Below, piece by piece: positions 5,572 through 35,069 of a stretch of 36,999 nt of DNA. The translations under genes were made by a program, and so were the position numbers. The notes below the pieces were generated by a model that had not been told where the DNA came from, ran no database searches, and saw only the letters and a list, made by a program, of their open reading frames with translations. Origin of the DNA: Chloroflexota bacterium. Lineage in GTDB: Bacteria > Chloroflexota > Anaerolineae > 4572-78 > J111. How positions within the stretch are numbered: the stretch's first letter is position 1; each line of letters begins with the position of its first letter. Location of the stretch: NCBI GenBank assembly GCA_020049115.1, contig JAIFLK010000034.1:1-36999 (forward strand). The letters are read 5' to 3'.

Positions 5572-5597
5572 CTACGTAGGAGAGGGTTGGGGTGAGG
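5563..5597. repeat. Palindromic G/C repeat of the GGGGTGAGG family
   Basis: A perfect 22-base palindrome (5565-5586, CCCTCTCCTAC mirrored) is followed by GTTGGGGTGAGG. It encodes the last residues and the stop of the AAA-ATPase-like gene. Related copies are at 208-240, 10321-10349, 27481-27514 and 29789-29868. Confidence 0.75.
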
Positions 5598-7521
5598 TTT
5601 TACGGACAACGCTTTTATATTCCTGCCACACCAAACGGTCATAGCCCACCGACACCACGACATAACAACGCAATTTCAAAAAGCCCACCCCATACACCTG
5701 TTGCAATTTCTCACGATAAATTTTTAGCTGTTTCTTCGCCTTCGTCAAAGCCGATTGCACGGGTTTCAAGGCCAATAACTCAACTTGACTCATGGCCGCC
5801 ACCTGCTCACCCGTTAATTGATGTTTCCCTAACGGGACATACTTAAACTCAATTAAAATATCTAACAAGGCCGAGTGGCGTAAATCAGGCCGCACCAGCA
5901 TGATTAAATCCCCGTAATGTCGCCCAATCGCTGGCTCGGAATCCATGATATAAAACGTATCATTAAATAATAAGGTTAAAAATACGGTCTTAATGGTCAA
6001 CTCATTGGTCGCCTCATAATCCCGATTGGCAAACACCTTAAATTGTTTCCGTTCAATAAATTCACACAGCGGCCCCATCTCCCCTTTTTGATACAATTGC
6101 CGCGTCACCTGTCGCGCCTCATCAATCTCTTGACCCAACGGTAACATTAACTCAAATAACTGTTCAGCGTAGAGCTTCCGTATCACCAAATTAGGAATTT
6201 GCAAAATCAATTCTTCATAAATAGTACGCTCACGGCTCAACGTGACCACCCCAAAAAAATATAACAACGAGGCCATGAAGGTCGTGTCATGCTCTGGCTT
6301 CAACATCTCCACCACCCCAAAACGGTTGGCTAATTGGCTAATCACCAGCGGCTCATGCTCGCCCAAAAGTTGCGTAATGAGTTCATAACCATGCGGCAAT
6401 TGAGCAATATAAGCAATTTTATTCCTATCCATCGCTAAATTATGGTCTAATATCTGTGACGGAAATTTACATTCGCGCTGTAAATATTTCAAAAAATATA
6501 AGACTAAGGTTGGGTTATAAAGTTTCCCCCCCTGTAAATAATTCGGGGATTTAGTCATCAGGTGACTTGAAGTCACCTGATGACTAGACCACATCCCCTG
6601 TAAATTTACAGGGGGAAGTTTTTCAGAGCTACCCCCTGCTACAGGGGGGAGGTCATAACTAAAGCTATAGCCATTATAAAATGTTCGCATCATCGTTAAA
6701 CCCTCCTCGACCTGCTCCGCCGAAAAATGGCACTGTTGACCAATTTGAGCTAACACCGCGGCCACTTCCGTTTCCTTAAAGCCACATAAATCATTAAACT
6801 GGTGCATAGAATAGATATTTTCCGAAATATTAAAGCCGCTCGTAATATCACTCATCACCACCGGCGACACCCCCGTAATAAACACACGGTCAATCCCCTG
6901 CCCTTCCGTCCCAAATTTAATGGCCCGAAAAATCGTCTTCAGTAGCCCCTCCCCTTTCACCAACGCCTCATACCGTTCATGGCTATCCCCATGCCCCGCC
7001 ATTAACACCTCATTGGCAAAATTGTCATATTCATCAATTAACAAATAAATCTTATACGGGGTACGCGACACCGCCGCCAAAATTGATTGAAATGAACGTA
7101 ACCCATCTGTTGGGTCAAGCTGAATTTCGTGGTCAAAATAGTCACGATAGGCTTGAATAAACTGTTCGGCTTGACCATTCAAATGATTATGTAACTGTTG
7201 CTTAATCTCAGGAATATCGCCCGTTGTATCAATCAGCGAGAAATTCCATTTCAAAATGAAATATTTATTATGGCGCGGCGTGGGTTTCTGCCCAATGGCT
7301 AAATGACCAAACAAAAGGTCAAACTCAGGAGCGCGCCGTATATCGTAATAATTATGCAATACCGACACCCACAGACTCTTCCCAAAGCGGCGCGGCCGCA
7401 GAAACAGCAACACGCTGCCCACCGACTCCATAGTCTCAATTGCGGCGGTACGGTCAATATAAAAATAGTCCTCCTGGATTATCTTGTAAAAATCAGCATT
7501 ACCGTAAGGAAGTCGTATCAT
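5572..7521 (-). CDS. AAA-ATPase-like / PD-(D/E)XK nuclease-superfamily protein
   Basis: About 649 residues of the AAA-ATPase_like (PF09820) plus C-terminal PD-(D/E)XK (PF08011-like) family, which is amplified in some large bacterial genomes; its cellular role is not established. A P-loop-like RPRRFGKSL is at about 42-50, Walker B IYLLIDEYD at about 158-166 and a sensor strand FITGVSPVV near 214. The nuclease-fold motif is GD at 537-538 and EFK at 558-560. Start choice: the ATG at 7521 has GGAGG five bases upstream. An upstream ATG at 7533 abuts the stop of the preceding kinase gene and itself contains that GGAGG, so it is less likely. Residues about 291-332 are an in-frame palindromic insertion between conserved FYNGYSFSYD and KLYNPTLVL. 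The C-terminus (KTSPQPSPT) is read from an intergenic repeat, whose palindrome supplies the stop TAG. It is probably co-transcribed with the kinase 12 bases upstream. Confidence 0.88.
   Translation of the reverse strand: MIRLPYGNADFYKIIQEDYFYIDRTAAIETMESVGSVLLFLRPRRFGKSLWVSVLHNYYDIRRAPEFDLLFGHLAIGQKPTPRHNKYFILKWNFSLIDTTGDIPEIKQQLHNHLNGQAEQFIQAYRDYFDHEIQLDPTDGLRSFQSILAAVSRTPYKIYLLIDEYDNFANEVLMAGHGDSHERYEALVKGEGLLKTIFRAIKFGTEGQGIDRVFITGVSPVVMSDITSGFNISENIYSMHQFNDLCGFKETEVAAVLAQIGQQCHFSAEQVEEGLTMMRTFYNGYSFSYDLPPVAGGSSEKLPPVNLQGMWSSHQVTSSHLMTKSPNYLQGGKLYNPTLVLYFLKYLQRECKFPSQILDHNLAMDRNKIAYIAQLPHGYELITQLLGEHEPLVISQLANRFGVVEMLKPEHDTTFMASLLYFFGVVTLSRERTIYEELILQIPNLVIRKLYAEQLFELMLPLGQEIDEARQVTRQLYQKGEMGPLCEFIERKQFKVFANRDYEATNELTIKTVFLTLLFNDTFYIMDSEPAIGRHYGDLIMLVRPDLRHSALLDILIEFKYVPLGKHQLTGEQVAAMSQVELLALKPVQSALTKAKKQLKIYREKLQQVYGVGFLKLRCYVVVSVGYDRLVWQEYKSVVRKTSPQPSPT
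6526..6651. repeat. In-frame palindromic element inside the AAA-ATPase-like gene
   Basis: About 126 bases made of nested palindromes: a perfect 33-base one (6553-6585), a perfect 20-base one CCCCTGTAAATTTACAGGGG (6595-6614) and CCCCCTG/CAGGGGG (6632-6648). Its layout matches the intergenic element at 22162-22284. It adds about 42 codons without breaking the frame. Confidence 0.8.
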
Positions 7522-7533
7522 TTTAGCCTCCAT

Positions 7534-10463: not shown

Positions 10464-11618
10464 TTATTTAGGGGGATTAAGCAATTCGCCTGTATCGGGA
10501 TTTACACCTGTGGTTAATTCACCATTAGCCAGTTTAGATTCCACTTGCGTGACTTTATTATATAACTCTTCAGAAATATCAGCCTCATGCCGACTCGCAA
10601 AAGACAACCCACCATTGGCAACACTTAAAATATAATTACTCCCGCCAGGAAAGTCCGTCAGCCTATTTTCAACCAAAGCCGAAAGCATATCAAATACCCC
10701 CACATCCACCCGCTTAATGACACTACTGATGATATATTGAGAGCCATCCACTTTACCATTTTGAAAGGTCGTTAAATATTCATCTTGGTCAACGCCAATG
10801 ACATAGACTTTTTGTTGCGCCGCCGCCAAAATAGCCCCATTCCCCGTTAACCCCGCGGCCCCAAAAATCACATCCGCCCCTTGGCTAATATACTCTTTAG
10901 CTTGCTTGGCCCCACCCTCTGGGTCAGCAAAACTCTCCAGGTAGATCCCCAATACCTTTATCTCTTGACCCGAATCCTTAGCCGCTTGAGCTACGCCTTG
11001 CTCAAACCCATGCCGAAAGCGCACTAAAGGCGGATAATCAGGGCCATAAATCCCCGCCACAACGCCTGATTTTGTCGCCAAGCCCGCCAAATAGCCCACT
11101 AAAAAGGCCCCGCCATCTTCATAAAATTGAATCCCCACATAATTTTTCGGCCCATTATCCACAAAATGGTCAACCCCAATAAAGAAAGTTTTAGGGTTTT
11201 CTTTTGCCACTTTTAAAGGAAACTCAGCATTTTCAACCGCTACAATAACAATAATTTCGGCTTTAGTTTCTAAGCACTTTTGAATATTAGCCTCATAATC
11301 CGCCACTTTATCTGAAGTAACATGAATAGCCTCAAGATTATAATCCGTGGCAATGGCTTGCATGCCCTCATAAACATAACGATTATAACCACTCGTTTCT
11401 ATATCACTCAAACTAGAAGCTAAACAAATCTTATTAATTGCCCCTTGACTAGCCTTATTGGCTTTGGTTGGGACAGGCATGGGCGTAGCCACCACCGTAG
11501 CCGTCGCGGGCGGCAAAGTGGAAATAACAATGGGTTGGTCACTAGAGCCACAACCCGATAGGAATAGTACAAAACTTAAGGTCATGCTGAGTAAACGAAT
11601 AAGGTAACTATACCGCAT
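10464..11618 (-). CDS. BMP/PnrA-family solute-binding lipoprotein
   Basis: A basic membrane protein (BMP/PnrA, PF02608) solute-binding lipoprotein of 384 residues. A signal peptide ends in the lipobox LSGC with lipidated Cys23, followed by a Thr/Pro-rich linker. Family features include the segment around YEDGGAFLVGYLAGLA, FRHGFEQGV and VIGVDQDEYL. BMP proteins commonly bind purine nucleosides for an ABC importer. No permease or ATPase gene lies beside it, so it may be an orphan binding protein that presents ligand to a kinase (inference). Start choice: ATG at 11618, with GGAG six bases upstream; the in-frame TTG at 11630 overlaps that site. It lies 101 bases (mostly repeat) after the kinase at 11732-14389 and 542 bases before the Cache kinase. 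A perfect 12-bp hairpin sits 50 bases past its stop. Confidence 0.93.
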   Translation of the reverse strand: MRYSYLIRLLSMTLSFVLFLSGCGSSDQPIVISTLPPATATVVATPMPVPTKANKASQGAINKICLASSLSDIETSGYNRYVYEGMQAIATDYNLEAIHVTSDKVADYEANIQKCLETKAEIIVIVAVENAEFPLKVAKENPKTFFIGVDHFVDNGPKNYVGIQFYEDGGAFLVGYLAGLATKSGVVAGIYGPDYPPLVRFRHGFEQGVAQAAKDSGQEIKVLGIYLESFADPEGGAKQAKEYISQGADVIFGAAGLTGNGAILAAAQQKVYVIGVDQDEYLTTFQNGKVDGSQYIISSVIKRVDVGVFDMLSALVENRLTDFPGGSNYILSVANGGLSFASRHEADISEELYNKVTQVESKLANGELTTGVNPDTGELLNPPK

Positions 11619-11660
11619 ATTTTTCTCCAAAATCGTAATAATTCAAAATAATAGTGCCAT

Positions 11661-11731: not shown

Positions 11732-14389
11732 TTAATTCGCCAACGGAATGGTGAAATAAAATTCAGAGCCATGACCTTCTTGGCTAGACAACCCCATTTC
11801 GCCTGCGTGCATTTGCACTAATTCCTGACAAATCGTTAAGCCCAAGCCCGTCCCTTCATGCCGCCGAGTTTTAGACATGTCCACCTGTTTAAAGCGTTCA
11901 AAAACAATCGCTTGTTTATCGGCGGGAATACCCATGCCCGTATCCATGATGGCAAAACGCATTTTCGGCGGAGTAGTTTGCGGCACAGTCACGTGAATCG
12001 TGACCGAACCTTGCTCGGTAAACTTAACGCCATTGTCCACCAAATTTAATAATATTTGCTTGAGCCGCGTTTTATCGGCCAATATCAACGGCAAGTTAGG
12101 GGCTGCCTCCAACTGTAGTTCAACGGGTTTATTTTTCACCCATAACCCCGCCGCCGCCATAACATCTTGTAACACCTCAGACACATCTAAAGACTCTAAC
12201 ACTAATTCCATCATGCCCGCTTCAATTTTGGAAATATCCAAAATATCATTCAAAATAGTCAGCAGGTGCTGCCCACTATTATAAATCAATTCCACATCAT
12301 GTTGCGCCAGCTCAGGCAAATCGCCACTAATGCCCAACATTAACAGCTCGGCAAAACCCAAAATGGCATTCAATGGTGTCCGTAATTCATGGCTCATAAT
12401 GGTGAGAAATTCCGATTTCAGGCGGTCTAATTCTTGTAATTTAACGATGGTTTCTTTCTGCTGCGCCAACAGCCGCGCATTATCCACCGCAATGGCGATT
12501 TGGTCACCAATAGATTGAATTAATTTAATTTCCGCCGTCGTAAAACGGTTAACCTGCTCACTTTGCACATCTAATACCCCTAAAACCTTACGCCCTTTCC
12601 GCATCGGCACCGCCAACTCAGATTGGGTTTTAGGCAACAATACATTACGTACAAAGTTAGGCACATCATCCACCCGATTGCTCACAAAAGGTTCATTGGT
12701 CGCCGCCACTGTCCCCACAATGCCTCGCCCCACAGGTAAACGATGCCCTTTAATTTTAAGTTGCCGCCCCACTTCGCCATAGCCTTGCACCATGACCAAT
12801 TCGTTGGTAGCCTCGTCCATCAAATAGATATGCGTATGGTAAAAATCGAACTCATTTTGCACCCGATTCACCACATAACTTAACAATTCATCCAAATCCA
12901 AAATAGCCGTAATTTGGCGACTAATATCGGTACTGGTCTCCAAAACCCGTGTATAATCTCGATTGAGCGCATTAACTTCTTTCAACTGAGCAATGGTCGC
13001 CTTTTGCTCACTCAACAAACGAGCGTTATCTACTGCAATGGCCGATTGGTCAGCAATGGATTGCATGAGCGCGACATCTTCTGCCATAAAACGATTGAGC
13101 TGCTCACTTTGAATATCTAACACGCCCAAAACTTGGTTGCCTTTACGTAACGGCACCGCCAACTCGGCCTGCGTCTGCGGTAGTAAGGCATTTCGTACAA
13201 AATTAGGCACTTCATTTACATTATTACTTAAGAAAGGTTCGCCCCGACTCGCCACCAACCCCACAATCCCCTGGCCGAGATGCAGCTGATGCCCTTTGGC
13301 CTTCAATTGCTTACCCACTTCACCCGACCCCGCTAACATTTCTAATTGTTTCGTCTGGTCATTGACCAAATAAACATGCACATGGTAATAATCAAAACTT
13401 TCCTTAACCTGATTAACCATGGTTTCTAACAAATGTTCTAAGTCAAGAATCGAGTTTAAGTGACCGCTTAATTGCGTAATTAACTCCAACCGATAGGTAC
13501 GGTCAACCACCCGTTCCTCTAACAAGGCGCGAGCTTGTTGTAACTCCGCTTGCAACTGCTTCGCCTCCGTTACATTCCGCACCACCGCCACGACCTGGTC
13601 ATTCATTAAGGGCGAGAAACGAGCTTCAAAATATCTCAAGCCATTCAACACAGGCATGGCGTATTCAACCTGACAAATGGACTTCGTTTCAATACTCTGA
13701 TTAATCGCCGCTTGAAACATGTTGGCTAAATCTGGCGGCAAAACCTCAAGCAGTCGTCGCCCCAACAACTGGTCAGGCGGCAAATATAAATCTCCCATCG
13801 CGGCTTTATAATCCAAATACGTTCCCTGAGCATCAAAGCGAAAATACAGGTCAGGCAAGGCCGCAAACACCGCCTCCAACTCGAAGGTTTTATGTTGCCA
13901 GGCCTGCGTATGCACCGCTATCTCCTGTTCTAGCCGTTGATGATAGAGTTTCTTATCCGTCACATCGTATAAGGCGACAAATAAAGCCGCTTCGCTCGCA
14001 AAGGTAATCGGTTGAAACGATATTGTTACCCAAAAAAGCGAGTTATCGGCTCGCCGCACTTGTAACTCATAGTTATGAACAAACCCTTGTGCCTTAATTA
14101 AGGCTAACAGATGTTGGCGGTCAGCCGCGTCATTATAAAAGTTAAGCATGGGGCGATGTAATAACTCCGCGACTGAGTAACCGAATAACGCGGCAAAGGG
14201 CGCATTAACCGCTAAAACCACACTATCCGCGAGCCGTGTCACCACGACTGGCACAGGTAAAATCTGAATCATGGTTTCAAAATAATTGGCCTGCTCAGGG
14301 GCTAATTGCGCTCGCAATTGCTCATTTTCTTGGCGCAATCGGGCTAATTCTGCTTTTAATGCTGCTTCATCTAATTCAAAATTATTCAT
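11732..14389 (-). CDS. PAS-PAS-GAF-GAF histidine kinase
   Basis: A soluble kinase of 885 residues. A short N-terminal coiled coil (about 5-30) precedes PAS domains at about 38-148 and 165-280, a coiled coil near 275-300, then GAF domains at about 318-455 and 498-640. The two GAF domains are near copies (both read GIVG, LAVP and RKG at matching places), pointing to internal duplication. DHp has H667 (SHELRTPLN). The ATPase domain has N786, DTGMG at 816 and GTGLGL at 846. The start ATG overlaps the stop of the upstream REC-kinase by eight bases, with GGAAGGG seven bases before it, so the two are probably translationally coupled. It ends the group that begins with the peptide-binding lipoprotein. 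Signals sensed by PAS and GAF are cytoplasmic and cannot be named from sequence. Confidence 0.94.
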   Translation of the reverse strand: MNNFELDEAALKAELARLRQENEQLRAQLAPEQANYFETMIQILPVPVVVTRLADSVVLAVNAPFAALFGYSVAELLHRPMLNFYNDAADRQHLLALIKAQGFVHNYELQVRRADNSLFWVTISFQPITFASEAALFVALYDVTDKKLYHQRLEQEIAVHTQAWQHKTFELEAVFAALPDLYFRFDAQGTYLDYKAAMGDLYLPPDQLLGRRLLEVLPPDLANMFQAAINQSIETKSICQVEYAMPVLNGLRYFEARFSPLMNDQVVAVVRNVTEAKQLQAELQQARALLEERVVDRTYRLELITQLSGHLNSILDLEHLLETMVNQVKESFDYYHVHVYLVNDQTKQLEMLAGSGEVGKQLKAKGHQLHLGQGIVGLVASRGEPFLSNNVNEVPNFVRNALLPQTQAELAVPLRKGNQVLGVLDIQSEQLNRFMAEDVALMQSIADQSAIAVDNARLLSEQKATIAQLKEVNALNRDYTRVLETSTDISRQITAILDLDELLSYVVNRVQNEFDFYHTHIYLMDEATNELVMVQGYGEVGRQLKIKGHRLPVGRGIVGTVAATNEPFVSNRVDDVPNFVRNVLLPKTQSELAVPMRKGRKVLGVLDVQSEQVNRFTTAEIKLIQSIGDQIAIAVDNARLLAQQKETIVKLQELDRLKSEFLTIMSHELRTPLNAILGFAELLMLGISGDLPELAQHDVELIYNSGQHLLTILNDILDISKIEAGMMELVLESLDVSEVLQDVMAAAGLWVKNKPVELQLEAAPNLPLILADKTRLKQILLNLVDNGVKFTEQGSVTIHVTVPQTTPPKMRFAIMDTGMGIPADKQAIVFERFKQVDMSKTRRHEGTGLGLTICQELVQMHAGEMGLSSQEGHGSEFYFTIPLAN

Positions 14390-15536
14390 CAGCTGACCCT
14401 TCCTTCATCGGCAATGTAAATTTTACAGTTGTTCCCTTGCCCAACGTACTCTCCACCCAAATGCGACCACTATTACGCTCCACCATTTCTTTACACAAAA
14501 TTAAGCCTAAGCCCGTCCCCTGCTCTTTAGCCGTCCCCAACGTGCTGTGAAACTCGCCCACCTGAAATAATTTGGCGATATTTTCCTCACTAATCCCCAC
14601 CCCAGTATCTATCACCGCCACTTCAACATACCCCCCTGAATCAGGGGGGACAGAGGGGGGTGTTTCCTGTGCTGCCAGCGTCACCATGCCCCCATGAGGT
14701 GTGAATTTTAGGGCATTAGCTGTTAAATTACGAATCACCGTATCCAAAATATTTTCATCGGCATAGACCATTAATTCAGACGAGATTTGCAAACTAAAAG
14801 TAATATTTTTCTCAATCGCTCTGGCCGATAACAAATTAATTGTTTGTTCGGCAATTGGGCTTAAATAAAGTGACTGTGGCGCATACGACAACCGCCCTAA
14901 CTGAATTTGCGACCATTTCAGTAAATTTTCCAGCAAATCCATCACCTGCCTCGCGGAACGGTAAATACTAGAGGTCATATCCTTAATATCTTCTGGACTA
15001 AAAACCTCTACCATTTCCATGAGGAGTTCTGCATTCCCCAAGACAGGCCAAAACGGCCCCCGTAAATCATGCGCCACAATAGACAGAAATTTATCTTTAT
15101 CCGTATTAGCCTTTTGCAAATTTTGGGTCAAATTACGAATCCGCAAATGGGTGGTTAGCCGCGCTAAAACCTCTTCATGCTGAATCGGTTTGGTCACATA
15201 ATCCACCCCGCCCACCTTAAACGCCTTTACCTTATGCTCAGCCTCCGTTAAAGCCGTCATAAAAATAACGGGAATATCCGCCGTGCGCGGGTCAGCCTTC
15301 AAACGACTACAAGTTTCAAACCCATCAATGCCTGGCATCATGACATCAAGCAAAATAATGTCAGGCCAACCATGCACCGTGCGCTGTAAACCACTTTCAC
15401 CACTACGAGCCATTAGCACTTCAAAACCTAGCTCCTTAAGATAATTCGTAATCACTTTTAAGTTAGTAGGGTTATCATCTATTACCAAAACCGTATAATC
15501 GGGTGGATGTAAGTCACCTAGTATCTCTGCTGACAT
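14382..15536 (-). CDS. REC-histidine kinase (reverse hybrid)
   Basis: A compact soluble protein of 384 residues. A receiver domain (about 14-130) has D20/D21, phospho-acceptor D64 (ILLDVMMPGI), T95 and K116. It is followed directly by DHp with H156 (AHDLRGPF) and an ATPase domain with N274, DTGVG at 310 and GTGLGL at 340. No other sensor domain is present, so its input is most simply phosphorylation of its receiver by another kinase (inference). Residues about 291-303, including PPSVPPDSGG, are a G/C-rich repeat-like insertion in the ATPase loop just before the DTGVG motif. The ATG at 15536 has AGAGG six bases upstream. The stop of the preceding PAS-PAS kinase is only three bases away, and the stop of this gene overlaps the next start by eight bases. 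The pairing with the ATPase-degenerate kinase upstream is notable. Confidence 0.93.
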   Translation of the reverse strand: MSAEILGDLHPPDYTVLVIDDNPTNLKVITNYLKELGFEVLMARSGESGLQRTVHGWPDIILLDVMMPGIDGFETCSRLKADPRTADIPVIFMTALTEAEHKVKAFKVGGVDYVTKPIQHEEVLARLTTHLRIRNLTQNLQKANTDKDKFLSIVAHDLRGPFWPVLGNAELLMEMVEVFSPEDIKDMTSSIYRSARQVMDLLENLLKWSQIQLGRLSYAPQSLYLSPIAEQTINLLSARAIEKNITFSLQISSELMVYADENILDTVIRNLTANALKFTPHGGMVTLAAQETPPSVPPDSGGYVEVAVIDTGVGISEENIAKLFQVGEFHSTLGTAKEQGTGLGLILCKEMVERNSGRIWVESTLGKGTTVKFTLPMKEGSADE

Positions 15537-15539
15537 GGT

Positions 15540-17504
15540 TTACCTCTTTAAATATTCTTCCAACAACATAATAATTTCCTCTTCTTCAAAATCCGTCGCC
15601 AATTGGCGCAAGGTGCGGGCAAACTCAGCCGAGGCCCCCCCCATGGTTTCAAGTTCCATGGCTCGTTCTTTAAGGGCTAATAAAGCCCCTTTCAAAGCTA
15701 ATTCATAAAGAGTTTCTAACTCTTCGTAAGAAGGCGGTATGATAGGCTGACCCGTTGGCAAAAGCGACTCAGTGGTGGTATTTTCAACTGAGTGAGTGGT
15801 AAGATGACTGTTAGAATTTGGCAACGCCAATTCAAACCACAAAGACCCTTCCTGCTCATCCTTAGCTTCAATATGAATTTCACTCCCCATGCCCTGAATT
15901 AAACGTTGAGTTAAGGTTAAACCTACATAATGCGGCCCTGCCAATAATGAGGTAACTGGAGGCAAAAATAATTGCTGTAATGCCGCTAGTGGCATCTCAG
16001 CGCGGCTATATTGAATTTCAAAACGAATATGATTAAGGTGAGTTTCCGCGTAAGACACCATAACATTCTGTTGGATTAACTGCTCGGTTATGAAATCAAC
16101 GCGTAAGGTGATGTGACCATGCGAGGTTAATTTTACCACCTGACCTAACACATTAATTAAAACTTGGCGCAAATATCGCTCATCCACCTGCACCCATTTA
16201 GGTAAATTCGCCGCCAATTTAGCCTCAAATAACAGTTTCTTCTCCTGCGCCTGCATTTGGATAATCGCTATCACGCCCTGCAAAAAACTCGCCAAATATA
16301 AATCCACTGGCTCAAAATCCAAACGATTAGCCTGACTATGTGAGAAATCTAAAATATCATTAATCAACGCCAGCAAATGGCGACCACAATCATAAATAAT
16401 GGCTAACCCTTCACTTTGCTCCCTCGTTAAAGGGTGACTCTGTTTAAGAATTTGAGCATAACCCAAAATTCCATTTAAGGGTGTCCGCAATTCATGGCTC
16501 ATATTAGCCATAAACTCGCTCTTAGTGCGATTAGCCGCCTCCGCCACCGCTTTCGCTTGCTCTAACTCCTCCGTTCGCTCAACAACCAATTCCTCTAAAT
16601 TATTACGATATTGTTCCAACTCCGCCTCAATTTGTTTGCGTTCAGTAATATTACTCACTAGGCCATAAATTATTTTTAGCGAACCTTCCAAACGCACCCG
16701 CGCACTATCTCGCACCCACAAAATATGACCATCTGCCCGCACCAAACGGTATTCAACCTCACTATTTTCGCCCTTCATCAAATGATGAAGCTGGCTTTCG
16801 GCCCGTTTTTGGTCAGACGGATGAATGACCACTCGCGGCCAAAAATCCCAATCATTCGTAAAATTCATTAAAGGATAACCCGTTAAATACTCTACATGGG
16901 TAGAAATATAACGATTAATATACTCCCCGTCAGGCGTTATTTCACTCACATAAATATGGTCACTAATTGAGGAAATAACCTGGCGAAATCGCTCCTCACT
17001 TTGCCGTAGTGCCTGCTCCGCCTGTTTACGTTCTGTAATATTAGTGGAAATTCCCGCCACCGCATAAATCTGCCCCTGGGCACCCCTAAGCGGAAATTTA
17101 GTGGAAACGTAGGTATATAATACATTATCAAATAAGGCCCACTCCTCCATTTCCTCACCTTGACCCGTTTCAATAACCCTACGATCATTTTGCCTAAATT
17201 GCTCCGCAATTTCTGGGGGAAAAATGTCTGCATCCGTTTTACCAATCACCTGCCGACCCAATTTTAACTGATAATGGCGATTACTTAAAATATAATGCCC
17301 CGTCAAATCCTTAACATAAATAAATGCAGTTGAGTTATTGATAATTTCCTGAAGCAATTGTTGATTGACATGCAATAAATTCTCAAACTGGTTACGTTGC
17401 TCCGTTTGCGCGGCCAAAGAAGCAACCACCTCTTCAAATTGTTTAGTCATATCATCAATAGCGAGATTAAATGGATATAGTTCATCATTTTTTGGCTCAA
17501 TCAT
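15540..17504 (-). CDS. PAS-PAS histidine kinase with degenerate ATPase domain (pseudokinase) and C-terminal helical module
   Basis: A soluble 654-residue protein. An N-terminal coiled coil is followed by PAS domains at about 52-162 and 170-292, a long coiled coil, DHp with intact H337 (SHELRTPLN), a kinase C-terminal domain at about 430-562 and a helical module at about 589-654. The ATPase region is recognisable by position but has lost its signature. The N-box reads NVLGQVVKLT with Gln455 where the Mg-binding Asn is expected. The DxGxG box is replaced by QYSRAEMP (about 498-505), and the GTGLGL box is replaced by GPHYVGLTL (about 523-531). It therefore probably cannot bind ATP, yet could accept phosphate on H337 from a partner (inference). 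The reading frame is intact, so it is not an obvious pseudogene. ATG at 17504 with GGGAG eight bases upstream; 47 bases after the Cache kinase and three bases before the REC-kinase. Confidence 0.92.
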   Translation of the reverse strand: MIEPKNDELYPFNLAIDDMTKQFEEVVASLAAQTEQRNQFENLLHVNQQLLQEIINNSTAFIYVKDLTGHYILSNRHYQLKLGRQVIGKTDADIFPPEIAEQFRQNDRRVIETGQGEEMEEWALFDNVLYTYVSTKFPLRGAQGQIYAVAGISTNITERKQAEQALRQSEERFRQVISSISDHIYVSEITPDGEYINRYISTHVEYLTGYPLMNFTNDWDFWPRVVIHPSDQKRAESQLHHLMKGENSEVEYRLVRADGHILWVRDSARVRLEGSLKIIYGLVSNITERKQIEAELEQYRNNLEELVVERTEELEQAKAVAEAANRTKSEFMANMSHELRTPLNGILGYAQILKQSHPLTREQSEGLAIIYDCGRHLLALINDILDFSHSQANRLDFEPVDLYLASFLQGVIAIIQMQAQEKKLLFEAKLAANLPKWVQVDERYLRQVLINVLGQVVKLTSHGHITLRVDFITEQLIQQNVMVSYAETHLNHIRFEIQYSRAEMPLAALQQLFLPPVTSLLAGPHYVGLTLTQRLIQGMGSEIHIEAKDEQEGSLWFELALPNSNSHLTTHSVENTTTESLLPTGQPIIPPSYEELETLYELALKGALLALKERAMELETMGGASAEFARTLRQLATDFEEEEIIMLLEEYLKR

Positions 17505-17551: not shown

Positions 17552-20257
17552 TTATAAATAACGTTCCAAAAATTCAATAATAGCTTCCTCGTCAAAATCC
17601 GCCACCCATTGACGCATTTGCACTACAAAGGGTTTTAATTCTAAATTGCTGCCCTCAACTCTATCCAATTGATGACCCAGTCGTAATAACGCCCCCATCA
17701 TAGCCAGCTCATGTAAAGCCACTAACTCATCTCGCGGTGGTAGGACTAGCTCCACCAGCGCGGCGGGAAACGCCTCTAAGGGTTGATGAGCCACTTCCAC
17801 GGTCACGGGCAGCCAATTGACCACCACTTCAGCCAAAGGCAAAGTAAAATGAAAGGTTGCCCCATGCCCCAGCTCACTTTCAGCCCAAATATGCCCCCCA
17901 TGCTGATTGACCATTTCTTGGCACATAATTAAACCCAAGCCCGTACCCGTCTCTTGGTTTGTGCCTAACGTACTATGATGAATATCCAATTTGAATAACT
18001 TGGTTATATCCATTGCACTCATGCCCAAGCCCGTATCCGCCACACAAACCTCAACAAACTCCTGATTAGCGGCGTGAGATGTGCCATTGGGCTGATAAAG
18101 AGCCGCACTCACGCTTACATTTCCCCCTCGGGTGGTGAACTTGAGCGCATTAGAAATCAAATTGCGAATAACGGTATCTAACATATATTCATCGGCATAA
18201 ACCAAAATGAGGGGCGGCAAAAAGCTATTTAGCCCAATCGCTTTGCTATTCGCATTAGCCATAAACAAATTAAGGTTTTGACTCACCAAATGGCTTAGAT
18301 TAACGGAACGTGGTTGATACGGCATGCGCCCCATTTGTAAGCGCGACCATTGCAATAAATTCTCTAATAAATTGTAGATACCTTCCGCCGAGCGATATAA
18401 GGTTTCGGCCATAGACTGAATTTTATCAGGCGATAATTCAGAAACTTCATGGGTCAAGTGTCTAGCAGTATTTAACAATGGCCCAAAAGGGCCGCGTAAA
18501 TCATGCGCCACAATGGACATAAATTTATCTTTATCCATATTAAGGCGACCTAATTCCAAATTAGCTTTTTGCAACGCAATTTCAGTCTGTTTACGCTCAG
18601 TCAATTCTTGCTGGGCGAGGCTATATAATTGAGCATTGGTTAAAGCCACCGCCACTTGATTGGCTAACGAACGCAGCAAGGTTAAATCGGCCTCATCTAA
18701 ACCACCCACGCGGTCTGATTGCACATCTAACACCCCCACCACCTTTTCTGACACAATAATGGGAACAGCAATTTCCGCCCGCGTATCGGGTAATAATGGG
18801 TTAGGTAGCCAATCTTGGGCTTGCCGCACATCATGCGCCAAAACCACCTCCCTGGTGCGCGCCGAACGCGCCACCAAACTTGTTTCCGTCGCTAAAGGGA
18901 TGTGATGGTGTCGCTTTTTCAAGGCCACCCCCGCCTGTCCTACTCCCGCCGTCATCACCAAATTTTGCTGCGCGTCATCGAGTAAATAAACATGGACGTA
19001 ATAGTAATTAAAATATTCTTGAACTTGATTCACCAACTCAGCCAATAACTCATCTAAATCTAAAATCGCATTGAGTTGCTCACTTAACGTCGCCACCACC
19101 TCCAACCGTTGAGTACGTTGTAATACTCGTAATTCTAACTCTTGTAAAAGTTGGCGTAATTGGGTGGTCATACTATTAAACGCGCCCGCCAAATGTTGAA
19201 TCTCTAAAGTGCCTTGAATGGGTGCAGAGAGTTCTAATTGTCCCTTCGCAATTTGAGTGGCCGTATTCGTTAAGTTAAGTAACGGCTTAACCAATTGTTT
19301 CGCCAAATAACCGCCCGCAATCGCCGCCCACACCACTACCACTAAAGCCCCCGCCACAGATAAAGCAAGATTAAGCACAATCGTTTGATACGCCTCAATG
19401 ACTGGCAACTCTACCACCACCGCCCAATCAGGCGTACCCAATGGCACATACGTCGCTAAATTATATGTCCCATTAAGACCTGTAATTATTCTACCCCCTG
19501 TTGGGTCGGCTAAACCCTGGCTTTGCTCAAATTCAAGCACCTTAGAAACATAACTTACGTTTTCTTGTCCTAATACACGACCAGTGTCGGCAAAAGCGAT
19601 TAACTGCCCTCGGCGATCCACCACATAAACCAACCCATGTTGACCAATTTTAATTGACCCTACCAACTCCCACACAAACTTAAGGCTCAATTCCGCCGTT
19701 AACGCCCCATCAAACTCATTCACCAAATTAGTCACAGGCACCGCCACTGAAACCAATGGGCTGCCTGTCCGTTCATCAAAATAAAGCAGGCCCATAGCCC
19801 GTTTTTTCTGGCTCACTTGCTTGAATAAGTTCGTCGTCGCGCGATTCAGCATATCATCAGGCTGATATATCCGATGGCGAGCCACCTTCGTTAATTCAAC
19901 ACCCTGAGCATCTAATAAAGCCACCTCCTCAAACACCGAGGTCAAACTGAGTAAATTTTGTAACATTACTTGCCGTTCAACCACCGTAATCGCAAAAGGT
20001 CGCCCCAATTTAGCCCCCGCCTCTAATGTTCTGAACACTTGCTCAATCTCGCTCGAAACACGTTCAGCCGCTTGAAATGCAACTAATTGCTGTTCAGCCG
20101 CAGCCACTTGTTGTTCCGCCCGAAAGTTGAGCAACATCTGAAAAATGGTCGCAAGGGACAACGAAGCCACACTCAACAATACAACCGCAGTGGAGAGTGT
20201 GGCCGCTAAAGTGCGCGCTGCTTTCGGTTGGGAATGAGGCGAATTTTCAACTAACAT
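17552..20257 (-). CDS. Cache-HAMP-GAF membrane histidine kinase with C-terminal helical module
   Basis: A membrane kinase of 901 residues. TM1 is about 20-42, an extracytoplasmic Cache-like sensor about 45-290, TM2 about 294-318 and HAMP about 318-370. A coiled coil, a GAF domain (about 400-545) and DHp with H585 (AHDLRGPF) follow. The ATPase domain has N703, DTGLG at 741 and GTGLGL at 771. The C-terminus (about 839-901, starting LPPRDELVALHELAMMG) is the helical module shared with three other kinases here. The ATPase loop before DTGLG is longer than in its shortest paralogue. It starts 54 bases after the peptide-binding lipoprotein gene, and the gap holds a 33-base palindrome. No strong Shine-Dalgarno precedes the ATG at 20257. 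Its position suggests it could read the ligand state of that lipoprotein (inference). Confidence 0.93.
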   Translation of the reverse strand: MLVENSPHSQPKAARTLAATLSTAVVLLSVASLSLATIFQMLLNFRAEQQVAAAEQQLVAFQAAERVSSEIEQVFRTLEAGAKLGRPFAITVVERQVMLQNLLSLTSVFEEVALLDAQGVELTKVARHRIYQPDDMLNRATTNLFKQVSQKKRAMGLLYFDERTGSPLVSVAVPVTNLVNEFDGALTAELSLKFVWELVGSIKIGQHGLVYVVDRRGQLIAFADTGRVLGQENVSYVSKVLEFEQSQGLADPTGGRIITGLNGTYNLATYVPLGTPDWAVVVELPVIEAYQTIVLNLALSVAGALVVVVWAAIAGGYLAKQLVKPLLNLTNTATQIAKGQLELSAPIQGTLEIQHLAGAFNSMTTQLRQLLQELELRVLQRTQRLEVVATLSEQLNAILDLDELLAELVNQVQEYFNYYYVHVYLLDDAQQNLVMTAGVGQAGVALKKRHHHIPLATETSLVARSARTREVVLAHDVRQAQDWLPNPLLPDTRAEIAVPIIVSEKVVGVLDVQSDRVGGLDEADLTLLRSLANQVAVALTNAQLYSLAQQELTERKQTEIALQKANLELGRLNMDKDKFMSIVAHDLRGPFGPLLNTARHLTHEVSELSPDKIQSMAETLYRSAEGIYNLLENLLQWSRLQMGRMPYQPRSVNLSHLVSQNLNLFMANANSKAIGLNSFLPPLILVYADEYMLDTVIRNLISNALKFTTRGGNVSVSAALYQPNGTSHAANQEFVEVCVADTGLGMSAMDITKLFKLDIHHSTLGTNQETGTGLGLIMCQEMVNQHGGHIWAESELGHGATFHFTLPLAEVVVNWLPVTVEVAHQPLEAFPAALVELVLPPRDELVALHELAMMGALLRLGHQLDRVEGSNLELKPFVVQMRQWVADFDEEAIIEFLERYL

Positions 20258-20311: not shown

Positions 20312-22132
20312 TTAAGGTGTCGCGGGCTTCAAATTATGAATGATAAAATGAGCCGTTTGCCACCAAGTCACTGGATGAATGTAATTATTCTTAGCAGTCG
20401 GCCACCCCGTCCAATAGGTACGGTTAAACGGCACAATAAAACTGGTTTGATTAACGGGAATAACGGGCAACTCATCCAGCCAAATTTTGGAGGCTTCAAT
20501 AAACAAGGGGTCAATTTTGGGGTCATCTAAGGGCAATGAACCAATCTGGTCAACAATTTTACTGTAACTATCCGCAGCGGGGCCAGACCAACGCCACACA
20601 TTTTGATGTTGCGCCGTCATTTCGCCCACAGGCTTCAGCCACCGAGTATTAAAAATATCCATGGATGACCAGGGTTCACTTACCGAGGCACAGGTAAAAA
20701 AGCCAAAGGCCGCTTCAAACTCCCCCATGCCCAAACTATCATTAAAAATTTGCGGGGCCACTGAACGCACCGTTGCCCGAATACCGACTTTGGCTAACTG
20801 TTTAACCAACGTTTCCGCGCTGCGCTGCTCATAAATATAGTCCGCCCGCGCCGAAATTTCCAATGTTAAAGGCTGATTCGCCTTACTAAAAAAGCCATCC
20901 TGGCCTAACTCCCAACCCACCTCCGTTAATAAAGCTTTAGCTTTATCGGTGTTATGTTCTAACAACGGATAGGTTTTATACAAGCCATCTTGTTCCAATA
21001 AATTAACATACCGATTCAGCGGCGGATAAGCAGGAAAAAAGTGACGTGAAGGGAAGGTCGTCCCATCGTAAGCAAACGCAACAATTTCGTCACGGTCAAG
21101 CGCATAATTCACCGCCCAGCGCATCCGCTTATCATCCCACGGAGCTTTCGCCGTATTAAACTCAAACGTCCGCGAACATGGGTCAGGCACCCAAGCGTAG
21201 GGCAAATCATCAAAATGGCTAATAATTTTAGCGTTACGTTGCTTCATATCTAGCAATGACGTTAAGGACGCATTAAACATGCTATCCAACTGATTATTCG
21301 CCATTAACTCCGCCCGTTTCGCCTCATCACCATACGCCGCAAAAATAATTTTCTGGGGCGCAGGCAAAGGCCGCCACCCCGACTTCGCGCCCCACCAATG
21401 ATCATCCCGCAAATAAACCATTTCCGTTTTACCCACACTCGCCAATTTATACGGGCCAGTAAACACAGGCCAGCCCTTCTTAGGGTCATAATTGGTAAAC
21501 GTCTTCACATCTTGCCCCTGCCAAATATGAGCAGGAACAAGATTGACCCCACTCCACAACCGCACCGACCAATGGTCAAGCTGAAAGCGAGGATTAGGTT
21601 TTTTGAGGATGAACTTCACCGTAAAATCATCCCCCTTCTCCACTTTATCCACCCAGGTTGCCAACTCACCCGAATAAACCAAATCTGGGGCATGGTCAAG
21701 CAATAATTTCACCGTGAAAATCACATCATCTGCCGTAAATACCACCCCGTCACTCCACGTAATACCTGCACGCAGTTTCAGCGTCCACACATCCAGGGTC
21801 GCGTTAGCGGTCATGCTCTCGCCTAACCAGGGTTCAATCTGCCCCGTTTCATAATTGAGAATGAACAGCGGCTCCATTAATAACTGTTGCAGCCCCATAT
21901 CCCGCCGCCAATTGGCAAGGGGATTCCAATTCGTCGGGTCAGCCACTGGCCCATCAGCAATATCCAAAATCAGCGTATCCTTACGCTCTATGCCATCGGC
22001 TGACGTTGTTTCCACGGTCGCGGCGGCGGGTGCAGACGTGGGCGTGGCCGTCTCAGGAGCAACACTATTACAACTAAGTAACGTGAAGAGTAACATACAC
22101 ACTAACACAGTCAAAACATTCTTACGTAACAT
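20312..22132 (-). CDS. Peptide/opine-type ABC solute-binding lipoprotein (SBP_bac_5 family)
   Basis: A 606-residue extracytoplasmic binding protein. The signal peptide ends at a lipobox-like LLSC with Cys21, followed by an Ala/Thr-rich linker (about 22-48). The SBP_bac_5 (PF00496) domain follows, with typical stretches: EPWLGESM, TWSDGVVFTADDVIFT, FTGPYKL and a VNYALDRDEIV segment before the second lobe. The family delivers oligopeptides, nickel, sugars or similar ligands to ABC importers; the ligand cannot be told from sequence. No permease or ATPase gene is in the window. ATG at 22132 has AAGGAG eight bases upstream. A 123-base inverted-repeat element sits just upstream, and the Cache kinase follows 54 bases downstream. 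A fusion-free binding protein next to a Cache kinase suggests a sensing pair (inference). Confidence 0.93.
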   Translation of the reverse strand: MLRKNVLTVLVCMLLFTLLSCNSVAPETATPTSAPAAATVETTSADGIERKDTLILDIADGPVADPTNWNPLANWRRDMGLQQLLMEPLFILNYETGQIEPWLGESMTANATLDVWTLKLRAGITWSDGVVFTADDVIFTVKLLLDHAPDLVYSGELATWVDKVEKGDDFTVKFILKKPNPRFQLDHWSVRLWSGVNLVPAHIWQGQDVKTFTNYDPKKGWPVFTGPYKLASVGKTEMVYLRDDHWWGAKSGWRPLPAPQKIIFAAYGDEAKRAELMANNQLDSMFNASLTSLLDMKQRNAKIISHFDDLPYAWVPDPCSRTFEFNTAKAPWDDKRMRWAVNYALDRDEIVAFAYDGTTFPSRHFFPAYPPLNRYVNLLEQDGLYKTYPLLEHNTDKAKALLTEVGWELGQDGFFSKANQPLTLEISARADYIYEQRSAETLVKQLAKVGIRATVRSVAPQIFNDSLGMGEFEAAFGFFTCASVSEPWSSMDIFNTRWLKPVGEMTAQHQNVWRWSGPAADSYSKIVDQIGSLPLDDPKIDPLFIEASKIWLDELPVIPVNQTSFIVPFNRTYWTGWPTAKNNYIHPVTWWQTAHFIIHNLKPATP

Positions 22133-22304: not shown

Positions 22305-25300
22305 TCACTCTTTGGCAATGACTAAATATTGCTGCAACAAGGTAATTATTTTTTCATCTTCCAAATTCGTCGCAAGTTCACGTAATAACCGAGCAAAGGG
22401 AGCCAGTTTAGCCTCGCTTCGTTCCATCATCATAGCTTGTTGTTCCACATCTAATAAAGCCCCCTTCAAAGCCAAGTCATATAATTTTTGTAATGCAGCC
22501 AACGGAGGTAGTGCTATTTGAGTGGAAACAGTGGGCAAATGTTGGCTCACCACCTTACCCTGATTAGAGTCGGCAACGACTTCATAAACCCATTCCAACT
22601 TCAAATATTGGGCTAATAAAGCCAATAACTTATCTATTTCAATCGGTTTAGATAAAAATGCGTCACAACCCGCAATAAAACTTTGCTCCCGATTGGGGCC
22701 AAAGACACTGGCCGAGACTGCAATAATGACCACTTTCGCTAATTGGGAAACGCCACGTATCGCCTGCACCAATTCAAATCCCGTTAACACTGGCATCACC
22801 AAATCAGTTAAAATCAGTTCAGGCTGCTCCGCTTGCGCCAAGGCCAACGCCTGCGCCCCATCTTCCGCCCCAATCATGGCGAAGCCCAAAGGTTTCAACA
22901 AATTAATCAACACGAGACGGTTGAAGGCTTTATCATCCACCACTAATACTTTAATCGGTGCAGTTAGCCCATCTAGGCGACGATAGCCAATAACAATTTG
23001 CTCAAGGGCTGATTTAACCGTAGAACCCATCAAAGTGGTTGGGAACATCACCTCAAAACTAAATTGGCTGCCCCACCCTAACTGACTCGTAACCTGAATT
23101 TCACCGCCCATGGCCTCCACCAACTGCTGACTAATTGATAGCCCCAACCCCGTTCCTTGTGACCGCCGCGCACTATCGCCCACTTGTTCAAAGGGTAAAA
23201 ATATCTTCTGTAGCTGCTCAGGGTTCATGCCCACGCCCGTATCCATAATCTCAAAGCGTAAGATGACCTTATTATCATCACTCACGGGCGTAGCAATGAC
23301 TCGCAATGTCACTTGCCCACTATCAGTAAATTTAACCGCATTACCCAGTAAATTAAGTAATACTTGGCGCAAACGTGTTTCATCGGCCTGAATACCCATC
23401 GGCAACTCACCTGATATTTCATACTGAAACCGAATGTCTTTTTGTTGCGCCCGCATCTGAATAATGCCCACAATCCCATCCATAAAGGCCGAAAAGAAAA
23501 TATCCACCGCATGTAATTCCATGCGTCGGGCTTCAATCTTCGCCAAATCTAAAATGTCATTAATCAGCGTTAAAAGATGTTCGCCACTTTGTTGAATAAT
23601 ATTTACCCCGACCTGCTGATTTTGCGTTAGTGCTTTATCGCGACCTAAAATTTGAGCATAGCCCAAAATGCCATTTAACGGAGTTCGCAATTCATGGCTC
23701 ATGTTAGATAAAAATTCACTTTTCGCTTGATTAGCCGCCTCGGCGGCGCGGCGAGCTTGTTCAAGTTCCGTAATATCATGGTAAAGAATTAACCCCACCA
23801 CCTGTTCACCCGCAATTTCAATAGGCGAAGCAAATAATTCGACCTCCACCAAACCACCATCCTTACGCGTCCGTTGCACAATCGCCCGAATCGGTTCAGC
23901 TTGTTTCATTTTTTCTAAATAGCCCAAAGCCTCAACTCGATTACTTTGTTGTATTACCAATTCATACAAAGGACGACCAATCGCCTCAGCTTTAGTATAG
24001 CCAAATAATTTTTCCGCCGCTGGATTCCATGATGTAACCAGATAATCATCCATCGTAATCATAATCGTGGCAATAGGACTATTAAGAAATAATGCCTCAA
24101 ATAACTGTTTTTCACGTTGTTCCGCCTGAAATAAACGGGCATTCGTTAACGCCACGGCCATTTGATTTGCCAATGACTGTAATAAATTGGCATCACCTTC
24201 ATCCAAGCCATGCACTTGGTTAGAGTAAACCGCCAAAACCCCGATAATCTCTTGCCCCTTAACAATCGGTACGGTAATCGCGGCCCGTGTTTCAGCCAAT
24301 AACGGTTGGCGTTGCCAATAACGCAGTTGCCATGTATCAGGCTCATTGACCATTTGCCCCGTTCTTGCGGCCTGCGCCACCAAACTGGTGGGATGGTCAA
24401 AACTCAGGGGCGCAGCCTGCGCCAGTAAATCCGCCGCGCCATCTCCCGCCGCGGCCCGTAAGGTTAATTGCTGTGGCTCATCTTGAAAAAATAATAGCAC
24501 ATGATAGTAATTAAATCGGTTTCGCAACTGCTGCACTAACTCTGGCAAAAGTTGGTCAAGATGTAATATCGCGTTCAATTGCCCACTCAAGGTCGCCATG
24601 CTCTCCAAACGGTGCGTCCGCGTCGCCACCCGTTCTTCCAACATCTCAAACGATTCTTGCAATTGTAAGGCCATCAAATTGAAAGATTTTGCCAGTTCAC
24701 CCACCTCATCCATGCGGTTAATATTGACGGATTGTTGCCATTTGCCCTGCGCTAACTGTTTGGCGGAGGCATTGAGTTGTAAGATAGGCCGTGAAACCCA
24801 TTGCACATTGAAAATCCCCACCAGCACCGCCAAAACCAACGCGGCCAAAATTAGCCCAAACGTAATTTGATTATTAGTAATAATCTGCGCCATAAAATCA
24901 TTTTCAGGAATAACCACCACAATCAGCCAATCCAAGCCATATTCATCAATGTAAGGAGTCACTTGGACAAATTGACGCTGATTATTTAATTGAAAATCCA
25001 ATTGTTGGCTATTGGTCAGGTTATGCAAATCACCAAACACATTAAGCAAATATTGCGTGGTCGCATGTACCAACGGGGCTTGGCTATCTATCGCTGGCAG
25101 CCGCTTCCCAGAATCCGTTTGTAACAAAGCCTCCTTGACCGAACTCGCCACCAAATCACCTGACCGTTCCATGATAAAGGTTTTCCCATTACGCCCAACT
25201 TTCAGGCTCTGCAAAAAATCACTCATCTGCGCCAACGTCAGGTTCGCCCCCGCCACCGCAATCAATTGACCCTGCTCGTCATAAAGGGGTTGGTTGGCAG

Positions 25301-25907
25301 AAATGGCTAACGCACTATTGGAAAAATAGGCATAAATGGCCGACCAAGTAGGCTTGGCAGCCTGCACAGAGGCTTTATACCAGGGACGTTGGCGCGGGTC
25401 ATAAGCAGGACGCTCTTGCGCCATTTCCCGCAATTGCCCGTGGTCATCGGTTATCCAAAGTTGTAAATTGCCCTTCGTGGCTTTACCCGCCATGCCTACG
25501 CGAATAGAGCCATCCTCTTGCCGTTGAGCTTCACTATATTCTGCCTGCTCCGTCCCCAAAGCAATCAAATTAACCCCATCAAACAAATGTAATTGATGCC
25601 AATAATAGGTGCGAATATGGGGCATGTCGGCTAAATCTAAATAACCTAAACGAATCGCCTCCGCATTAAGACGGTTAACGAGGTGAGGCGTTTCCAAATA
25701 ACTATTAAGTTTTTGCTCAATGCGCGCCGTCGTTTCATTTCTTAACTGACTCGCCACATCATTAATGGCCGTCTGACTATTACGAAAAGAAAGATACCCC
25801 GTTAAGCCGACCACCAAGACAATAAGCAGCACAAAGGGGACAATTAAAACTGTGCGTAATGACAAACGAGCCAATAATTCAGTTTGGTTGAATCTAAGAT
25901 GTTCCAT
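22305..25907 (-). CDS. Hybrid histidine kinase: dCache-HAMP-GAF-PAS-HisKA-HATPase-REC with C-terminal helical module
   Basis: The largest product, 1200 residues. TM1 is about 18-40. A double Cache domain spans about 45-345 and contains the RPWYK motif at about 174-178. TM2 (about 348-368) and HAMP (about 369-420) follow, then GAF about 450-592, PAS about 600-718 and DHp with H738 (SHELRTPLN). The ATPase domain has N856, DTGVG at 889 and GTGLGL at 918. A receiver domain at about 985-1102 has D991/D992, D1035 and K1087. The end (about 1133-1196) is the shared helical module. It is the only kinase here with a C-terminal receiver, so internal phosphotransfer is likely. The ATG at 25907 has GGGGAG five bases upstream and overlaps the end of the upstream GAF kinase by 14 bases. 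Confidence 0.95.
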   Translation of the reverse strand: MEHLRFNQTELLARLSLRTVLIVPFVLLIVLVVGLTGYLSFRNSQTAINDVASQLRNETTARIEQKLNSYLETPHLVNRLNAEAIRLGYLDLADMPHIRTYYWHQLHLFDGVNLIALGTEQAEYSEAQRQEDGSIRVGMAGKATKGNLQLWITDDHGQLREMAQERPAYDPRQRPWYKASVQAAKPTWSAIYAYFSNSALAISANQPLYDEQGQLIAVAGANLTLAQMSDFLQSLKVGRNGKTFIMERSGDLVASSVKEALLQTDSGKRLPAIDSQAPLVHATTQYLLNVFGDLHNLTNSQQLDFQLNNQRQFVQVTPYIDEYGLDWLIVVVIPENDFMAQIITNNQITFGLILAALVLAVLVGIFNVQWVSRPILQLNASAKQLAQGKWQQSVNINRMDEVGELAKSFNLMALQLQESFEMLEERVATRTHRLESMATLSGQLNAILHLDQLLPELVQQLRNRFNYYHVLLFFQDEPQQLTLRAAAGDGAADLLAQAAPLSFDHPTSLVAQAARTGQMVNEPDTWQLRYWQRQPLLAETRAAITVPIVKGQEIIGVLAVYSNQVHGLDEGDANLLQSLANQMAVALTNARLFQAEQREKQLFEALFLNSPIATIMITMDDYLVTSWNPAAEKLFGYTKAEAIGRPLYELVIQQSNRVEALGYLEKMKQAEPIRAIVQRTRKDGGLVEVELFASPIEIAGEQVVGLILYHDITELEQARRAAEAANQAKSEFLSNMSHELRTPLNGILGYAQILGRDKALTQNQQVGVNIIQQSGEHLLTLINDILDLAKIEARRMELHAVDIFFSAFMDGIVGIIQMRAQQKDIRFQYEISGELPMGIQADETRLRQVLLNLLGNAVKFTDSGQVTLRVIATPVSDDNKVILRFEIMDTGVGMNPEQLQKIFLPFEQVGDSARRSQGTGLGLSISQQLVEAMGGEIQVTSQLGWGSQFSFEVMFPTTLMGSTVKSALEQIVIGYRRLDGLTAPIKVLVVDDKAFNRLVLINLLKPLGFAMIGAEDGAQALALAQAEQPELILTDLVMPVLTGFELVQAIRGVSQLAKVVIIAVSASVFGPNREQSFIAGCDAFLSKPIEIDKLLALLAQYLKLEWVYEVVADSNQGKVVSQHLPTVSTQIALPPLAALQKLYDLALKGALLDVEQQAMMMERSEAKLAPFARLLRELATNLEDEKIITLLQQYLVIAKE

Positions 25908-35052: not shown

Positions 35053-35069
35053 GATAATATCTCGAAACA

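Follow-up and report, generated by a model that had tools for sequence, protein, structure and literature searches.

The 654-residue product of the minus-strand gene at 15540-17504, read within a window of 36,999 nucleotides (the whole stretch of DNA that was analysed), has the layout PAS-PAS-HisKA-degenerate HATPase_c-C-terminal helical domain, and judging from its sequence it retains the tandem PAS, the DHp, the signature of the CA fold and the C-terminal domain but has lost the main ligands of ATP and Mg2+. The best explanation, to which we give a probability of about one half, is that the protein works as a pseudo-histidine kinase and that its DHp either exchanges phosphate with a receiver or dephosphorylates it, the receiver most likely being that of the adjacent REC-kinase; phosphate supplied by others would probably be passed on or removed. 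Such a protein would be unable to autophosphorylate from ATP, the intact receiver-binding face of its DHp would exchange phosphate with a receiver domain or strip it, the PAS sensors would control that exchange or removal, and the degenerate CA would have a structural or regulatory role, in the manner of ChpT, Spo0B and PhyT.

The frame opens with an ATG at 17504 and runs for 654 codons without a stop, as the initial annotation had claimed. It encodes, all on the minus strand, a PAS_4 domain (residues 56-161, 17022-17339; PF08448, 68.7 bits), a PAS_3 domain (residues 199-272, 16689-16910; PF08447, 48.2 bits) and a HisKA/DHp domain with the motif SHELRTP (residues 328-392, 16329-16523; PF00512, 75.2 bits), in which the codon of the phospho-accepting H337 lies at 16494-16496; that this histidine and the DHp helix are preserved had been noted before and holds. 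The degenerate CA (HATPase_c) domain (residues 394-562, 15819-16325) was delimited from Pfam, the alignment and an alpha/beta CA fold in the AlphaFold2 model, and a C-terminal four-helix domain common to many kinases of the clade closes the protein (residues 591-654, 15543-15734; no Pfam match). The comparison with HATPase_c (PF02518) that had been proposed gives a match over residues 441-561 at 29.0 bits, just over the Pfam cut-off of 26.4 bits, as against 80 to 95 bits for the neighbouring kinases tested.

To locate the losses, the protein was aligned with the DHp-CA regions of 44 intact homologues that came from the same genome and family. Within the altered N-box, VLINVLGQVVKLT (residues 448-460, 16125-16163), the Asn that is invariant in all 44 homologues is Gln455, as the initial annotation had it. 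It was likewise right that the DxGxG box is gone: in the G1 region (residues 496-504, 15993-16019) EIQYSRAEM replaces xVxDTGxGI, so that DxGxG has become YSRAE (499-503) and the invariant D, G and G are Y499, R501 and E503. Residues 513-531 (15912-15968) comprise an altered F-box, which reads FLPP for FxPF and has lost the second Phe, an ATP lid that is about 4 residues shorter than in the homologues by alignment, and a G2 box in which PHYVGL replaces GTGLGL (524-529). Here the invariant G, G and L are P524, Y526 and V527, whereas the final G528-L529 is retained, so the GTGLGL box is not gone in its entirety. Since N451, K458, T460 and F513 also remain in the pocket and PF02518 still passes its cut-off, the claim that the ATP-binding motifs have been lost, correct in that three boxes are altered, is a slight overstatement. 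The protein has the phospho-accepting histidine of the active HisKA kinases and lacks their N, G1 and G2 boxes for ATP and Mg2+, and with a kept fold and lost ATP-binding residues it fits the descriptive class of pseudo-histidine kinases (Spo0B, ChpT, PhyT, DivL, FasC). A double frameshift hiding the boxes was rejected, as the other two frames contain neither DxGxG nor GxGLGL and carry stops, and the flanking motifs align in frame.

The changes are unevenly placed. Every strongly conserved DHp column between 333 and 372 is unchanged, including H337, E338 and T341 of an intact HELRT motif, and of the conserved DHp columns as a whole 42 of 53 are unchanged, with the changes clustering at 387-396, the hinge to the CA, where FSHSQANRLD stands against a consensus close to LSKIEAGKxE. 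Within the CA, 9 of 12 ATP-contact positions have been lost compared with 6 of 16 other conserved positions, an apparent excess that is suggestive only (Fisher p = 0.067). In other HisKA proteins the HELRT motif serves both phosphotransfer and the dephosphorylation of response regulators. Retention of the receiver-facing DHp together with loss of the ATP-facing part speaks for a protein still engaged with receivers, and the residues H337, E338 and T341, along with an intact receiver next door, appear compatible with a DHp-type phosphotransferase.

That receiver belongs to a REC-HisKA-HATPase_c kinase on the minus strand (14382-15536), which has D20, D21, D64, T94 and K116 in its receiver and intact ATP boxes. 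Its ATG at 15536 is separated from the stop of the pseudokinase by 3 bases, exactly the spacing previously annotated. In this genome and family, 14 of the 64 cases examined show a SHELRTP kinase directly followed by a REC-kinase; the REC-kinase is therefore a usual companion of this kinase type and not peculiar to the pseudokinase copy. From this gene order we guess that the receiver of the REC-kinase is most likely the partner of the pseudokinase, and the earlier suggestion of a phosphotransfer scaffold or an allosteric partner of the downstream REC-kinase appears plausible and has close precedents. A more specific account, in which the kinase of a recurrent kinase and REC-kinase pair of this kinase-rich clade became an ATP-free, PAS-gated phosphatase or phosphotransferase acting on its neighbour's receiver and hence an independent HisKA-type counterpart of PhyT, is put forward tentatively. 

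The gene is flanked upstream, 47 bases off and in the same orientation, by a Cache-HAMP-GAF-HisKA-HATPase_c kinase (17552-20257, minus strand), and the gene of the REC-kinase overlaps by 8 bases that of a PAS-GAF-HisKA-HATPase_c kinase (11732-14389, minus strand). The 37-kb window is read almost throughout in one direction and is dominated by a head-to-tail array of about a dozen genes for histidine kinases. The array also holds two extracellular substrate-binding proteins (Bmp, 10464-11630; SBP_bac_5, 20312-22132) and a 653-residue protein (5572-7533), which we take to resemble an AAA-ATPase that ends in a nuclease of the PD-(D/E)XK type. A DNA-binding response regulator was not seen at positions 1-36999.

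The strongest rival to exchange with a receiver is a heterodimer, in which the pseudokinase would use its DHp to pair with an intact kinase and would either have H337 phosphorylated in trans, as in FasB/FasC, or inhibit or activate its partner, as in RetS-GacS or DivL-CckA. We regard this as possible, though less likely than the receiver reading. The helices of the DHp dimer are intact, and the cluster contains intact kinases of the same subfamily at 22305-25907 (63% identical in the DHp) and 32200-35070. In an AlphaFold2 model of residues 276-654, built from an alignment of 47 sequences (mean pLDDT 85.5), the DHp forms a long hairpin and the CA an alpha/beta domain, and these are followed by a linker of low confidence and four helices at the C-terminus. 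Among solved structures, the kinase cores of GacS (7z8n, TM 0.79 by target) and RetS (6dk7, 0.73) match this model best, and a RetS-GacS DHp co-complex is also among the structural matches. There are precedents in FasC, a proposed pseudokinase phosphorylated in trans (PMC12675982), in DivL (PMC4211667) and in the pseudokinase ChrS, which works through another kinase (PMC9491836). Against this, both directly adjacent kinases have a DHp of the AHDLRGP type, which would be unlikely to pair with the SHELRTP type, and an interaction with a receiver is the better fit for a recurrent neighbour that has a receiver domain. Gene order does not separate the two readings decisively.

A gene in decay, whose CA has recently lost its function and drifts while the frame stays open by chance or only for the sake of the C-terminal domain, was also considered. 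Consistent with this, the terminal CA branch of the pseudokinase is the longest of 45 sequences, at 1.60 substitutions per site, or 4.3 times the median of 0.37, the DHp branch is accelerated too (0.60 against a median of 0.21), and the loss is kept in no orthologue, the homologues read being all intact. A search of GTDB species genomes with the protein itself found no orthologue, a second scan, made with an alignment, gave 80 relatives from cyanobacteria, Chloroflexota, proteobacteria and others, none of which lacks all three boxes, and an orthologue was found neither in the family (12 genomes) nor in the order (25) nor in samples of the class (298) and phylum (400). In the order, class and phylum searches, made with the segment from the CA to the C-terminus, the best matches were intact kinases at 32-40% identity, plus L061 (see below). 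The source genome is a 4.4-Mb draft, 56% complete, and the genome set holds no second member of the genus. From the source genome about 104 ORFs were read in which a DHp motif precedes a stretch long enough for a CA domain. Only 15540-17504 among them lacks all three boxes, while a few others lack one single box pattern; because it is the sole case, the combined loss is more than chance. Homologues read from other genomes include no further case. A small family of degenerate kinases within the source genome was rejected, and a second automatic match for the loss of three boxes, in L162, proved on inspection not to be a histidine kinase.

Several observations speak for maintenance instead. A terminal CA branch of such length means that the loss is not recent, and codon usage in the CA region (0.687 in frame compared with 0.448 and 0.526 in the other frames) matches that of the rest of the gene and the cluster, with an ordinary codon-position composition. 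The pseudokinase has kept 41 of 42 columns of the hydrophobic CA core, although the identity of its CA to five intact relatives is 33-38%, against a mean of 55% among the intact ones. We compared this with a simulation in which an intact paralogue was mutated at random with the open frame as sole constraint (300 runs); at 55% identity the core retained a mean of 34.9 columns and at most 41, at 45% identity a mean of 32.7 and at most 39, and the runs that escaped changes creating a stop numbered 1 of 300 at 55% identity and 0 of 300 at 45%, a rough test in that the ancestor was a present-day paralogue. The annotation had taken the open frame as a sign of selection for something other than an ATP-using kinase. 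The frame by itself does not prove selection on the CA, because the in-frame C-terminal domain alone could hold it open; the codon usage, the retained core and the long, old and stop-free branch do support, at the level of sequence, a pseudokinase maintained by selection. Recent decay of 15540-17504 thus appears unlikely, and we give decay as a whole little credence. The weakest alternative is a protein that still uses ATP by binding nucleotide through other residues. In its favour are the retained K458, N451, T460 and F513, the closing GL of the G2 box and the persistence of the CA fold in the proposed structure prediction; the alignment behind that prediction otherwise holds intact kinases, so that the predicted fold leans towards them and is not independent proof. 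This alternative is rendered improbable by the replacement of the Asn that binds Mg2+, the Asp that contacts adenine and four glycines, all of them invariant in the 44 homologues, by bulky or charged residues, by the shortened lid and by the altered hinge between DHp and CA.

Histidine pseudokinases that keep their histidine are already known, and 15540-17504 is a new and apparently independent one, distinct in its sensor, in the type of its DHp and in its C-terminal domain. A close precedent for a protein that exchanges phosphate with receivers is PhyT (formerly PhyP) of Sphingomonas melonis, likewise a sensor protein with an intact phospho-accepting His and a degenerate ATPase domain and thought to derive from a kinase, which carries phosphate from SdrG~P to PhyR (PMC5898713). 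PhyT thus transfers phosphate between two receivers, a step that the pseudokinase may share, and it differs in having a DHp of the HRxxN type and a membrane-bound periplasmic sensor where the pseudokinase has a HisKA-type DHp, tandem PAS and an extra C-terminal domain. Spo0B of Bacillus and ChpT of Caulobacter, named in the same study as degenerate kinases (PMC5898713), also combine an active-His DHp with a CA-like domain that makes no use of ATP; in ChpT the Bergerat fold is atypical, and the protein cannot autophosphorylate and gave crystals without bound ATP or ADP (PMC3433190). The pseudokinase differs from both in its PAS sensors, the likeness being known at the level of the shared fold only, and the lid that in ChpT is replaced by extra helical turns is here simply shortened. 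ChpT and Spo0B are without sensor domains.

Among the proteins that act through a kinase, DivL of Caulobacter resembles the pseudokinase as a pseudo-histidine kinase that has PAS sensors and binds ATP weakly (PMC4211667), but in DivL a Tyr replaces the His that is kept here as H337. FasC of group A Streptococcus is a proposed pseudokinase with a functional His and an intact kinase encoded beside it (PMC12675982); it is of another subfamily, and its partner is the kinase with which it heterodimerises. RetS of Pseudomonas aeruginosa is, together with GacS, the best match in both structure and sequence, yet it belongs to the membrane hybrid kinases and contains receiver domains, and the likeness stands at the level of the match, ATP boxes aside. 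RetS, itself a kinase, acts by way of another one. Sensor proteins of this sort, which retain the His without binding ATP, show how intermediates of phosphorelays arise from sensor kinases, a principle that is known; the present pseudokinase is a naturally isolated case, still placed beside the type of receiver protein that often accompanies its intact relatives. Intact relatives with the same gene neighbourhood offer a standard against which a change from kinase to phosphotransferase or phosphatase can be examined.

The C-terminal domain of about 63 residues, with four predicted helices (pLDDT 94.5), ends some 80 of the kinases read from the source genome, cyanobacteria, Chloroflexota, Thiomargarita and others, as it does at 17552-20257, 22305-25907 and 32200-35070. 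It has a faint TPR-like look, and neither a consistent Pfam match nor a solved homologue was found for it; an HPt domain was rejected, as there is no conserved His and no convincing structural match (two HPt chains, E about 6-7). The same domain ends a minus-strand open frame of 328 residues in L061 (genome G021 of the same order), where the CA boxes are intact but the DHp stretch bearing the phospho-accepting His is absent (EALNHKQHERINIVHQSGEHLL), which may reflect an assembly error or a real deletion and makes this frame an apparent mirror case of the pseudokinase.
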